Source: Phycomyces nitens
Lineage: Eukaryota; Mucoromycota; Mucoromycetes; Mucorales; Phycomycetaceae
Assembly: GCA_022702545.1 (NCBI GenBank)
Contig: JAHRBC010000004.1
Coordinates: forward strand, 1,798,001-1,862,000
DNA: 64,000 nucleotides
Direction of reading: 5' to 3'
Part shown: positions 30,591-57,732 of the stretch, piece by piece
How positions within the stretch are numbered: position 1 is the stretch's first letter
How the letters are laid out: every line of letters starts with the position of its first letter
The notes under the pieces: model-generated
Told to the model about the DNA's origin: nothing
Database searches by the model: none
The model's input: the letters and a program-made list of their open reading frames with translations, nothing else
Made by a program: the position numbers and the translations under genes

Positions 30591-32129
30591 TTATTTTGGT
30601 AGATAGCCAATAACTGTTCCTGCAATAAGACACCCAAAGCCGGCAAATAGGTAAAGAATGACAAGCCAGCTGTAGATTCTAGTGGGATTTCCACTTGATA
30701 CCATTACATAATTCGCACCTACTGAACTTATGATCCACAAAAACACCAAGGCTTCTGCTGTACTGCGGTTGCCATAGTCTGCCCAGATACAGACAAGCAG
30801 AGGCACTACTATTCCCCCAAGTATGGAAAACATGGCAATCAAGTGATGGGTACGATCAGTTATTACATCTTCAGATCCATTCTTGAATTCACATTTCTCG
30901 AGAATAAAATGCAAAAAGCTGCCCTTGTACAACAAGTCTCGTCGGCTGTCTCTCCAGCTGTTGCTGACCCGTGTGTCCTTTGGAAGATACATTTTACTTG
31001 CAAGTTTTGGAGTATAAACTTCATGGTCTTCCACAATCTCTTTCCAGGGTATGTCTGAATCGTATTGGAGACTAAATGGCGTGGCTTGCTTGTGTAAGAG
31101 ACCAAGGGAAACTGTCTGGAGAATTGACATGGCCGTGTAGATGAACAGAGGAACCCTGGCCCATCTGTCTCCATTGTCATAGACACATATGATCGTAACA
31201 CAGAACAGTTGTGCAATCGCAACCAATGCTCCTGTGTAGGGAACAACGTCTACGTTGTGAGCTGTTTGGAGTTGGCTGATCATATCAATTGACAGATAGC
31301 GGACCAACCCCACACCCACAGGAGATTGGTATCGTGAATGTACTCCTGGGCCATTGACCGAGATATGCTTGGTTTCCTGTTGACCACAATCCGGGAAGCT
31401 CGAGCACTTGATAGAGTCGAACCCCAAGAGTAAATTGTTATTGATAATACAGTCCTTTACTTTTCTGGCCTTTTTGGGTCCAATGGTGTACAAGAGAGCT
31501 GCGAGGTAGGCCGCATTGTCATAATTTTTGAACTGGATATTATCGGTTTCTTTTATATAATCTACTAGCCAGTCTCTCAATTGCTCTGCATTTGCCAGTT
31601 TGTCGTCTGGATTGGGTATCTTTTTATGGTCCAGATATCGATCTGCTTCTAGTTTGTAGGATTCTTTTGAGAGCGATGGAATTGATGAAATCCGAGAAAA
31701 TGATTGCAGAGATGGGGGTAGTGGAGGAGATGGCGGGGGAACCGGTTGAGGCGGGGAATAGTGGGTTTCCTTGGTGCGAATTCGGTTCTCGTACTTTTCC
31801 AATGGGATCCTGAATTGGTCTATTCCAAGGAGTTTATCGCCATAGTACCGTGAGTATATTGACAAGATGGCCATGTATATCCCGGACATTGGAAATATAA
31901 CTAGCAAGAGGTGGAAAATATTGGCGTCCAACTTCCCAAATGGCTTTTGAGGTCGAACGGTTAGGACGTGAGCCAGGTAGCCAATCACGATTGTCAATAC
32001 AATTGAAAATATTGTTATTCCAGTAGATGGCATGCCATTCTCTTGTTGTAGGGGTAGCGCACGGCACCTTGTTATAAAGTTTAATAGAATGATGATTACT
32101 AGGGTAAATAATCGGCTTTGCTCAAACAT
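30591..32129 (-). CDS. Multi-pass membrane protein of unknown function
   Basis: A single uninterrupted frame of 512 residues, unusual here for lacking introns. The first 25 residues are a hydrophobic leader ending at RCRALP, possibly a cleaved signal. Predicted membrane segments: about 36-56, 70-92, 298-317, 327-345, 428-450, 457-477 and 485-510, seven in all. Between segments 2 and 3 is a soluble region of about 200 residues with a Pro-rich stretch (residues 126-139) and several Cys. A second soluble loop at 350-425 is charged. I recognise no family. Seven segments invite comparison with 7TM receptors, but the 2+2+3 spacing is unlike classical fungal GPCRs. Confidence 0.75.
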   Translation of the reverse strand: MFEQSRLFTLVIIILLNFITRCRALPLQQENGMPSTGITIFSIVLTIVIGYLAHVLTVRPQKPFGKLDANIFHLLLVIFPMSGIYMAILSIYSRYYGDKLLGIDQFRIPLEKYENRIRTKETHYSPPQPVPPPSPPLPPSLQSFSRISSIPSLSKESYKLEADRYLDHKKIPNPDDKLANAEQLRDWLVDYIKETDNIQFKNYDNAAYLAALLYTIGPKKARKVKDCIINNNLLLGFDSIKCSSFPDCGQQETKHISVNGPGVHSRYQSPVGVGLVRYLSIDMISQLQTAHNVDVVPYTGALVAIAQLFCVTIICVYDNGDRWARVPLFIYTAMSILQTVSLGLLHKQATPFSLQYDSDIPWKEIVEDHEVYTPKLASKMYLPKDTRVSNSWRDSRRDLLYKGSFLHFILEKCEFKNGSEDVITDRTHHLIAMFSILGGIVVPLLVCIWADYGNRSTAEALVFLWIISSVGANYVMVSSGNPTRIYSWLVILYLFAGFGCLIAGTVIGYLPK

Positions 32130-32900
32130 TTTATGGGTATAGATGATTAGTGGTTAAAGAAAGAGAGAGTTAATATTAATTGTGGCAAGTAATGGCTAAT
32201 AAACCCAACAAAAGGCTTAAAATAAGAATGGGGCTTGAGTAAACTTTTTTTATGAGTATAGTCTAGTAATGCCCTGCTAATGCCATGGTGCTATCTACCT
32301 ATAATTTGAGAGTATTTTTTATTACTATTATTTTTGCTTAATTGATGTATTGGTTTCATTCTATAGGATCCATTACACAATTCTCTACAAGATTCTACTG
32401 AAAAGGTTGATGTTACTTTTTCGTATGGGCTCATCAAATAAACTTCTAAGCCTTGTGCACAATACACAAGGATAAGCTTTTTGACAATAATTGAGCTAGA
32501 ACTGTTTGTATTAAACTTGAAAACAAACCTGAAAACGTATCAGAATATCTACCAAATCCATTTGCGATACATTAAAAAAACGCATCTTATCAAGTTTGTG
32601 TAGCTTTTTTTCTTTTCGGGCGAGTACAAAAGACCCTTGTACAGTTTTATCCCTTGATACCAAAGTAAGGAATCAAGACAGTACTCCATTGAATGCAATA
32701 CCATCAATCAATAGACAGATACTGTCCTAGAGGCTACATTTGAAGTCCAAACTTCTTTATGATATTGTGAGATTATTATTATTATTATTATTATTATTAT
32801 TTAATGCTTATTATCTTGAGCACCGTCACGTACCTTTATTTTTTGTTTTTTAATCGTTATTTATCAATCTTGCATAATTCAGTGTTTTTCATTGTACTCA
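32130..32900. other. Divergent promoter region with ATT microsatellite
   Basis: About 770 bp between two divergently transcribed genes (membrane protein and Yme2). Contains an (ATT)n run at about 32774-32810 and A/T-rich stretches. No gene seen. Confidence 0.6.
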
Positions 32901-42444: not shown

Positions 42445-45400
42445 ATGACCGAACGAGCGTCCTCCAACCTAGAAGATCAGTGCTTTCATACCATAGATCA
42501 AGCCTTTATTATCACTGATGATTCCTATGGCAATCCAGCTTTGGATTACTCTCATCCATCTCCCAATTGCACGACCAATTACTACAATCACTTGATGTCC
42601 CTCAATTCCTCCTCATCTCATTATACCCCCATACTTCTCGATACCTTGACTCCCCCCTATGAAACAAATAATGCATTGATGCACGGACCACACTGCACCG
42701 CAACCCTGTCAAATAGCGACTGTATAGATCATTTTCCGGGTATTAAGCGCAAACGCCAGAATACTATAAGCGACCAATCAACAAGCTTGCCAATCTATTC
42801 TGGTGCTTACCAACCCAACCATACCAGCCATACAGAAACCAACCACACCAATGGGTTCCAAGAGTATCAATCTCCAATATCTCTTGTCAATTCAGAATAT
42901 TACAAGAATATACCCTCTGATGGGCTCCAGGACACTCATATATTATACCCCGAGCCAAATCAAGTCTGCAAATCAGAATCATTCGAGAGCCTCGTCTTGA
43001 ACGAATCAGATGCCAAAAAGGTCGTTTATATTCTGGGCAACATGCTCTCTATAGTAAAAGATGATGTATCAAATGAAGTGTCAAAGAGAGTCGCCAGTGC
43101 AGGTAAGTCTATCTATATGTTATGTGTGCTAGTCTGGGCCATTATACTCAACTCTTATTCTTGTTAGGCTGGTCATATATGCCAGACTCTGCTCTCGACT
43201 ATCTGTTTCGTTCCCTAGAGTCCGAAAAGGTCTCAAGGGACATGTCTGCCATTCGAGATACGGTCAAGCAACAGACGATAGATATCTACTGCCTCATGAC
43301 TGGCTTCATGACAGTTTACCTTGTCTTTATCGAGATCCTTTTTCAAGACTTGATTGGCAATATGAATCAGAGTTCTTTTATAGAGTACTCGAGTCTCTTT
43401 TCAGAACAAGACGACATCTTTAAGAAATCTGATGATATATTTCTATGGCACCATTCATACACTCGTCACAACACCAACATTCTGTACTCTCTAGGGAACC
43501 AAATCCAAGCAGCTGGCATAAAATTTCATTCTCTTCAACTCATTGACACCATATTTTCACAATTCTACACCCTTCATTTTCTCGAAACCTCGGCACAAAA
43601 GCATCAAAAAGACCATGGTCAGTTCTATACCCCCCAAAGCGTGGTTCAATTCATGTGGACAAGGTGCATGTCAGACCAAACTCTACGGGACGCACTAAAG
43701 ACAGGCAGAGTACCACGCGTACTTGACCCATGTATGGGTATAGGTACCTTTCTTTGCGAGTTTCTTGCCAGGCTTACCAGTCAGAGCACAAGTATACCTC
43801 TCTTGTGGAATGATCCGACCATGCTGAAAAACATGCTGTCTCGGACAATCCCAGACACCTTGTGGGGTGTAGAGATTGACCCATTTGCATGTAACCTAGG
43901 AAAGTTGAATGTAATGATTCATTTGTTTCCGCTTTATAAGAGACTAGTTGAACTCGGCGAATCCGTAACACCACGAATGATCAACCGGCTGCGGATCTTT
44001 TGCAATGACACTCTCAAGTTGACGGTGGAGAGCAAGCCGATAACAGAATCAGGAACAGAAGCACAGCGTTGGGAGAAGGAGCAGCTGGAAAAGCTCAGGG
44101 ACGCAGCCCTATTCAAATTCGACTATGTTGTTACCAACCCACCATATATGATCCGAAAGACTGGATTTATTTCTGTACCAGACCCAAAGCTATACGATGA
44201 TAGTATTCTTGGTAGAGGAAGCCAGGCATACATGTACTTTTTATGGATTTGTCTTCAAAGATGCGAAGAAACCAACGGTCAGATCTGCTTCATCACACCT
44301 AGTCAATGGATGGTTCTGGAATTTGCCCAAGATCTCAGGTGAGAAGCATATGGTAGTGATGAGATTATAGTGACATTTTGTTGACAATACTATCGTTCTG
44401 ACAAACAGAGCATGGATTTGGCAGCATTTTGAAATGCTAGAGATCTTTCAGTTTGAGCCCTACAAGGTCTGGCCAAAGGTTCAAACGGACTCTCTTATAT
44501 TTAACCTACGTAAACGTGCTCCTGGTCGTGTACCAGAACAGACGCTGTTTCTGAGGCATATGTCTCGAAAACATAACCTGGAGAGCATCATCAAGTCTTA
44601 CAATATATTCGATCGCTCTCGCTTGGAGATACAGGACCCGCTCATCAAGTACAAGCTGACATCTACCCAACCAGTGGATTATATACTCCAGATCCCCCAC
44701 GCCTCGTTCTCTTTCCTGTCTCCTACATCATCTGTCTCTGACCAGCTCATGAACCTAACAAAGAGTCTACCCCGTCTGTGTGATGGAGAAATGTGTTTGA
44801 GCACATCCTCGTGTGCTCCTCTTGTCTGGAACCGCGGACCAAACACAAACCCAGTGTATGCACTGGTTGTGCGGACGCGGTGGGCCCTTGATGTGTTTGG
44901 GAAAGAATGCTGTGATCAATGGCTTCGGCCGGTATTTTACTGGAGTGGTAAGTCTTCTAGCGCAAGCCGACGAAGAAAAACAAGCGAGTGCCCGATCATC
45001 AGTAAAGAAGCCGTGTTTTGGCAAGATCGCGACCCTCTGCGCCTGACAAAAAAGGAGAATTCCCCTGCCGAAGCCTATGTACCTCTTTGCCGCCCTGACC
45101 CAGACGATACCAGATTATCGTTCTATTCAATGATACTGGTCGACAAAGACGGGGCTCTTCAGTTGGAAGAAGAATACAAACGATACGGCAGCACTGCCAG
45201 CTCATCTGCGCTCTATCACTATTTACTTGACGCCCGAAATGCTCTTCAGACTACAAAAACCGACCGGAATATTGCATATTGTCATTACAGCAAGTGTGGA
45301 ATCGAAACACCCGTAAAAATCGTCCATCCCATAAATTTCGGGTATTTTACTCGCACACAACCACGGCAACGGTTCTTTATTGATACTGATCGACGGTGCG

Positions 45401-46113
45401 TAACAAACCAATGCATGTACTTTACCATCAAGTCTGAGTATCCTTGGCAATCTGCAGACTTCTTTTGTGGTCTGCTGAATTCCAGTACCCTGCAGTTCTT
45501 TATACGAGACACATGCTATTATGACCAGCAAGGGCGCACACGGTTCTTTGGAAAGCACATGGCCAAGATTCCGTTCACACCACCTCGTTCGACTATAGAC
45601 GTTGAAATCATGGCTATGTTTGTCCGACACCTAACCACGGCCCGTGAATGGATATATGGAATCATTCAGCTTTCCAATACACTGAATGTTATGGAGCAAG
45701 TCAGAGGATGTACATGGCATATACCTGTAGTCGATCAGACGTTATTGTCTCTATGCGAACAAAACAAACCCAACTGGCGAATTGATTTGTGTAGGACATC
45801 ACAAAATGCAAATGACTGGATAAATATAAGAATACAATCAAGATTGCACACAAGTGTGGGTATGTATGAGGAGCTAAGACGACTTCTTAAAGTGGCGTCC
45901 TTGTTTCAATATTGCATTGATCAGCTCGCCTATGACATCTACAGTATACCAAAAGAGCTGCAAAAAGGGCTTGAGCAGGAACTTGGGCTCATATTGACTG
46001 AGACATGGAAAACAATTTTATTTGAGGAGATGAGCGTGAAAGAGCACTGTCTAACCTGGGGGCTGTGTATGGAAGAGGTTGCAAAGAAGATATTCGACAA
46101 AGAAGATTGCTAG
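42445..46113 (+). CDS. Eco57I/PglX-like adenine-N6 DNA methyltransferase
   Basis: Three exons, 42445-43102, 43168-44338 and 44409-46113; 1177 residues from the first ATG in frame. Residues 1-220 are low-complexity with a KRKR nuclear-signal-like patch near 100. A helical region follows, then GQFYTPQSVVQF (about 370), SAM-binding motif I DPCMGIGTFL (about 406), GVEIDPFACNLGKLN, and catalytic motif IV NPPY (about 542). NPPY in this context means amino-group (N6-adenine) methylation. The last 570 residues resemble a TaqI/type IIG target-recognition region (FFCGLLNSSTLQFF...GRTRFFGKHMAKIPF). Order and size match bacterial type IIG or BREX PglX enzymes. No nuclease motif is seen. Introns and eukaryotic neighbours exclude contamination. 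Confidence 0.85.
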
Positions 46114-56968: not shown

Positions 56969-57732
56969 TTTTAAAAGGAAAGAAAAACGTTTGAAGCAAT
57001 CCATTTGACAGTCAAATCTCAGTCTTGCAAAAAAATTTATGTCTTTTTTTTTTTTTACTCAGCCTCTGGTAAAATAAATAGCCTTTTTGTGACTGTGGAA
57101 ACCATAAATTTTTTTTTCTAGGCCAATTGCTATATAAAAGAGCTGTCCAGGCGTGTACCTTTCCTTTCTCTCTACAACACTCAACAGGCAAGTAACTCTT
57201 TTACATATTTATTATTATAATTTTTATTGGATTTGATTGGATCATTCTTTATAAATGATGAGAAAAATTACAGACCTGTTCTGCACTTTTACTGAAGACA
57301 ACCATATATTGCCTTTTATCTGAATAATGATGATTTCAATCAAATAATTGTTATAAAAAATAATTACAAGAACAAAATATCTGCAAACAATTTTTGCTAA
57401 CTGTTTGTTTCTTTGTATTACAGATCAAAATGATTCATGAGCAAGCAAAAAGATACTTTAATAAATAATAATAGTAATGATAATAATAATAAAAACTTTA
57501 TAATAAACTATAATTTCTTTTTGAAACTATATAATTTGGCGTCATTTCCAATCATCATACCACTTGTCGTACCATAGACCTCTTTTGGGCCTTTTTTGCT
57601 CAGCATTTTTGTCTTTTGGAAGCACCCGCACGTCTATTATAAAAATAAGGGTGTCATGTGGATTAGACTAATAGTGGTGTATATATAAACCCTTTGGTTT
57701 ATTTCATTCCTTTACTTTACCCTTTTAAAAAA
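56969..57732. other. Intergenic region with an orphan promoter and intron signals
   Basis: Contains a TATA-like box at 57132-57139, a CT-rich initiator region, a CAG/GCAAGT donor at 57187/57188, a CTAAC branch site and TATTACAG acceptor ending at 57423, and a 12-codon frame at 57430-57468 followed by AATAAATAATAATAG. No longer protein can be made. See findings. Confidence 0.4.
57682..57689 (+). promoter_or_regulatory. TATA box of the PB1-like gene
   Basis: TATATAAA lies about 44 bp before ATG 57733, leaving a very short leader. It is the only good TATA match in the 150 bp upstream. Confidence 0.5.

Follow-up and report, generated by a model that had tools for sequence, protein, structure and literature searches.

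The gene analyzed here lies at positions 42445..46113 on the plus strand of a 64,000-nucleotide stretch of Phycomyces nitens DNA (the window, to which all positions refer). Its closest described counterpart is MetB of Mucor. Lax et al. 2024 (PMC11258239) named the MetB family (PF02384), reported its conservation in both Mucor and Phycomyces, and described it as a separate fungal clade from an ancient bacterial transfer, with an MmeI-like recognition domain (PF20466) detected by HHpred. Deletion of metB in Mucor lowered N6-methyladenine (6mA) by 70–75% and removed the AAA-6mA-CA motif, and the mutants were hydroxyurea-sensitive, contained more lipid, and showed lower virulence in Galleria. Symmetric 6mA persisted in these mutants; in Mucor it requires p1 as well as mta1, a gene of the MT-A70 family. 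The authors state that asymmetric 6mA was completely lost. By the published figures, however, the symmetric share was 0.32% in the wild type and only tripled in the mutants, which leaves the bulk of the residual calls outside the symmetric class; they could be noise or the work of another enzyme. In P. blakesleeanus, 91.72% of 6mA sites were symmetric and 97.70% were in ApT (PMC11258239); the methylation output of MetB is known from Mucor only. The MetB finding reappears in a Nature Genetics paper of 2025 (PMC12695648) and in a review from 2026 (PMC13297926). The Rhizophagus irregularis methylome paper (PMC8298701) deals with MT-A70 only, and PF02384 is absent from its main text. The class, function, and bacterial origin of MetB are therefore already in print, following its deletion in Mucor in 2024.

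MT-A70 writers (Mta1/AMT1) likewise carry out adenine-N6 DNA methylation in early-diverging fungi, but they belong to another family, with DPPW instead of NPPY and, according to PMC11258239, a symmetric ApT mark instead of an asymmetric one. An earlier note on this DNA had suggested a different class of 6mA writer. The difference from MT-A70 was upheld, since the window protein carries NPPY, not DPPW, and gave no match to PF05063 (MT-A70) in Pfam at E ≤ 1. The class is not new, having been published as MetB. Our preferred reading, with a probability of about 0.88, is that the gene is a MetB orthologue. On this reading, MetB is ancient, has been inherited vertically, lacks a nuclease, and descends from a bacterial adenine-N6 DNA methyltransferase that was type IIG/IIL/CamA-like. 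Compared with the accessible account of MetB, the present analysis adds the CamA-like fold, the conserved recognition domain, and the distance of the best bacterial relative; the locus as such is a further orthologue in a family that has already been characterised.

Protein family and predicted fold

The window protein showed Pfam matches above cut-off to Eco57I (9.3e-21, residues 451–631) and N6_Mtase (PF02384; 3.4e-15, 56.6 bits, cut-off 20.4, residues 348–601). TaqI_C (2.2e-5, residues 925–998) remained just under its cut-off (25.1 against 26.5 bits), and a TaqI_C match at E ≤ 0.1 was found in 17 of 20 fungal MetB members. The earlier note had proposed a profile check, a phylogeny, and a structure prediction; the profile check thus held for Eco57I and N6_Mtase and fell slightly short for TaqI_C. 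No nuclease family was matched in Pfam, either in the window protein or in the 20 MetB members.

The catalytic adenine-N6 methyltransferase domain (residues ~348–648, 43551..44523) was placed by these two Pfam matches and by the fold of the predicted model of P0001, the P. blakesleeanus protein. It holds GQFYTP at residue 370 (43617..43634), present as GQ[FY][YF]TP in 54/54 aligned relatives, motif I DPCMGIGTFL at residue 406 (43725..43754), whose D, P, and C are invariant in the 54-sequence alignment, and motif IV NPPY at residue 543 (44136..44147), found in all 54. In this enzyme family, motif I binds S-adenosylmethionine (SAM) and motif IV is catalytic. The motifs and the two matches above cut-off bear out the identification as a bacterial-type adenine-N6 DNA methyltransferase. 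Upstream lies an N-terminal helical domain (residues ~246–347, 43245..43550), helical in the P0001 model, where the chain matches of HsdM, BsaXI, DrdV, and MmeI start. Downstream, a target-recognition-like domain (residues ~743–1002, 44806..45585) includes the TaqI_C-like part.

All structure comparisons rest on the P0001 model. The nearest solved structure was CamA, the orphan adenine methyltransferase of Clostridioides difficile with the site CAAAAA (PDB 7lt5; PMC8187626), ahead of PglX and MmeI. The fold was shared over the methylase and recognition domains, with 17–19% identity in the listed structural alignments, and MetB adds the N-terminal helical domain, the low-complexity N-terminus, and introns. 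The sequence alignment of the two recognition domains gave 1.5 bits, too weak for comparing base-contacting residues. Type IIG/IIL enzymes (MmeI, DrdV, BpuSI, BsaXI) showed the same order of helical, methylase, and recognition parts, BsaXI only to model residue 454–456. Matches to MmeI, BpuSI, and DrdV started at their residues 175–199, which we take to be past the nuclease. Unlike these enzymes, MetB has no detected nuclease, and its recognition domain is conserved, not variable. Matches also included M subunits of type I systems, 3ufb among them; the 3ufb match stopped at model residue 493, ahead of the recognition domain, which in MetB is part of the same chain.

The layout had first been likened to BREX PglX (the methylase of bacteriophage exclusion systems, also BrxX), an identity that the scores reject. 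PglX models gave 14–40 bits on five MetB proteins, 20.7 and 25.7 bits on window exon 2, and no match on exon 3, against cut-offs of 400–900.

Relatives and origin

A search of ~5.8 billion proteins yielded 93 relatives, and all 83 with organism names were fungal, the best being P. blakesleeanus (91%). Judged from genus names, these 83 are early-diverging fungi from Mucorales, Umbelopsis, Jimgerdemannia, Glomeromycotina, Mortierellales, Calcarisporiella, and Basidiobolus. Homologues in related fungi were thus found, for example in P. blakesleeanus, Apophysomyces, and Mucor. P0001 and the Mucor circinelloides protein P0019 (used here, not the M. lusitanicus record) showed 48% identity over 924 columns. 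By sequence comparison, the window gene is a full-length orthologue of Mucor MetB, which it resembles in the PF02384 domain and in its fungal-only clade.

Two further features of the family were observed. Gongronella butleri has two diverged MetB copies (P0046 and P0095), each listed with 933,292 bases as its longest contig, in which the loop after NPPY is altered (QNRLTG and LTRATG, compared with MIRKTG), which could mean a changed target or role. Many of the Mortierellales relatives among P0056–P0094 are 1300–2250 residues long, exceeding most Mucorales lengths.

With a profile built from 20 fungal proteins, scoring covered the 7986 candidates that had the most words in common, and 89 rows resulted. 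Of these, 84 reached at least 344 bits, and the remaining five, headed by a Bdellovibrio protein, did not exceed 61 bits. This protein, the top-scoring bacterial relative with a name among these candidates, aligned to 28% of the query at 22% identity. When a collection of 84,980 prokaryote genomes was scanned for two conserved peptides as patterns, 22 matches were obtained, none of them a relative; as the scan depends on those peptides, this is weak evidence of absence. For the maximum-likelihood tree, 39 rows were chosen and one (L020, without the NPPY motif) was dropped, leaving 38 catalytic domains. All 20 fungal rows fell on one side of a branch with 100/100 support, apart from the bacteria. 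The four glomeromycotinan rows grouped together (100/100), as did the two mortierellan rows. The stem of the fungal clade was drawn at 2.57 changes per column; as this stem and that of the Bdellovibrio-type proteins are both long, their joining may be false, and five rows deviate in letter make-up. No bacterial donor emerged from these searches, which speak neither for nor against the endosymbiont donor given for the main fungal clade in the published work.

Recognition domain and probable role

In 54 fungal proteins, mean conservation was 0.676 for the recognition domain and 0.666 for the catalytic domain, within which NPPY was invariant. The ratio of recognition to catalytic pairwise identity averaged 1.06 (1326/1431 fungal pairs), against 0.57 (0.49–0.69, 15 pairs) for the Bdellovibrio protein and five relatives. 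When one rule was applied to all proteins, the fungal ratio showed a median of 1.04, a 5th percentile of 0.88, and a minimum of 0.77 (237/250 sampled pairs). The bacterial ratio was 0.50–0.84 over 18 non-redundant pairs above 0.5 catalytic identity, with one BREX PglX pair at 0.57. The two ranges touch, as the bacterial pair L025/L032 at 0.84 exceeds the fungal minimum; shared ancestry also makes the pairs non-independent, and on the bacterial side the sample is small.

A second genome scan for the bacterial control yielded two loci only, so further genome loci were used, giving 29 bacterial proteins and 195 scorable pairs out of 406. L011 and L041 (the Halobacteriovorax gene of P0108) were excluded, together with loci without an open reading frame (ORF) of >700 residues holding NPP[YFW]. 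From 31 scored bacterial pairs above 0.5 catalytic identity, the 13 that involve L017 or L042 were dropped, as these two are one gene and near-identical to P0099. The direction of the difference is clear from these alignments: in fungi, the domain that reads the target is as strictly conserved as the active site. Since the recognition domain is conserved like the catalytic domain, the target seems to be fixed, and a role in defence by diversification is unlikely. Such a frozen domain is in keeping with an epigenetic writer of fixed specificity and not with a defence enzyme that diversifies.

This bears directly on the suggestion in the earlier note that the protein could be a genome-defence enzyme of restriction or BREX-like type, marking self against invading DNA. 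In favor of such a role, which we regard as very improbable, there is a remote sequence resemblance to models of BREX PglX, MAD2, and type IIG enzymes. The PglX scores are far below their cut-offs, no nuclease family was detected, and the model match to MmeI, BpuSI, and DrdV presumably begins after their nuclease. Neither a restriction nor a BREX family was found among the 18 other window ORFs of at least 150 codons by Pfam, the BREX family PglZ (PF08665) had no match in the genome, and the recognition domain is frozen where a defence enzyme would diversify.

A role as chief writer of the plentiful ApT 6mA of its Phycomyces host has still less in its favor, and we reject it on the published Mucor genetics. 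MetB is a complete adenine methylase and the nearest relative, P. blakesleeanus, is rich in ApT 6mA, but in Mucor, according to PMC11258239, symmetric 6mA needs both mta1 and p1 and is retained when metB is deleted. The P. nitens genome also has its own MT-A70 matches at three places, two with DPPW. From motif context, we take the three to be METTL4-type, Mta1-type, and perhaps Mta9-type. A catalytically conserved enzyme whose DNA target is different or lost in Phycomyces, or whose substrate is RNA or mitochondrial DNA, is improbable too, if a little less so than a defence role. It would agree with the little non-ApT 6mA reported for P. blakesleeanus in PMC11258239; the recognition domain is, however, conserved equally with the catalytic domain across fungi, P0001 included, and the protein reads as having a basic patch like a nuclear localisation signal (NLS) and no evident mitochondrial leader.

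For the MetB orthologue of our preferred reading, the C-terminal recognition domain would most likely bind a short non-palindromic A-rich site. One adenine would be flipped into the NPPY pocket, and a methyl group transferred to it from SAM. Only one strand would be marked, as with AAA-6mA-CA in Mucor, and each daughter duplex would need marking anew, while symmetric ApT 6mA would be made by a separate MT-A70 (Mta1) complex. The window copy would likewise be active, nuclear, and directed at the same target as Mucor MetB. A wider proposal is tentative, with somewhat less than even odds: MetB may be a second 6mA system, universal among early-diverging fungi, that has kept one target since their common ancestor, reading A-rich non-palindromic sites by a CamA-like squeeze-and-flip, with a one-strand mark in Phycomyces too, hidden under symmetric ApT methylation. 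The frozen recognition domain predicts methylation of the same asymmetric motif across Mucoromycotina, Glomeromycotina, Mortierella, and Basidiobolus, and the CamA-like fold gives a template of solved structure for the way such a site may be read. MetB is a clear case of a bacterial DNA methylase turned epigenetic writer by a eukaryote.

Gene structure and neighbourhood

Conceptual splicing gave the coding sequence join(42445..43102, 43168..44338, 44409..46113), a single frame of 1177 residues whose sole stop is terminal. The two spliceosomal introns, the length, the GQFYTP, DPCMGIGTFL, and NPPY motifs, and the KRKR patch were all reproduced as first described. Exon 1 (42445..43102, +) encodes a low-complexity N-terminal region in which S, T, N, and P are frequent and conservation is weak before residue ~185; KRKR lies within it at residue 101 (42745–42756) and would be the NLS-like patch. 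Intron 1 (43103..43167, 65 nt, GTAAGT...TTAG) is followed by intron 2 (44339..44408, 70 nt, GTGAGA...ACAG), which lies inside the catalytic domain. The splice at intron 2 and the reading frame downstream of intron 1 match P0001 (91.6% identity over 952 aligned residues, window residues 224–1175). As P0001 begins downstream of intron 1, support for the intron 1 junction comes from Apophysomyces P0002, whose alignment spans it (window residues 185–262). The public gene model of P0001 starts at window residue 224, without exon 1, and window residues ~185–222 align to Apophysomyces; from these alignments, the P0001 model is probably truncated at its 5' end.

The locus lies on a 6.56-Mb contig of a 49-Mb, 11-contig assembly. 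It is single copy, as matches to the P. blakesleeanus protein in the assembly were two exon pieces at this locus only. Contamination or an assembly join is ruled out by the two introns, the single locus in the 6.56-Mb contig, the named fungal orthologues, and the ordinary fungal neighbours, so the gene is domesticated, as had been proposed. The genome's second PF02384 match (G000:C1:188538-188822) also has NPPY and is not another MetB; we assume its NPPY context to be HemK/PrmC-like.

Among the 18 other window ORFs of at least 150 codons, nine gave Pfam matches above cut-off (Sec62, septin, Sec7-like HUS, RNA12, Sel1, PIN, bZIP, aspartyl protease, and RRM), one matched Hus1 below cut-off, and eight were without a match. 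With no nuclease family in the window protein, no restriction or BREX family in these ORFs, and no PglZ match in the genome, the description of the gene as an orphan stands. A 520-codon open frame at 30594–32153 on the minus strand had no Pfam match. At 57251–57325 (+), Rfam detected the C/D box snoRNA snR56 with 55.8 bits, just above the gathering score of 54.
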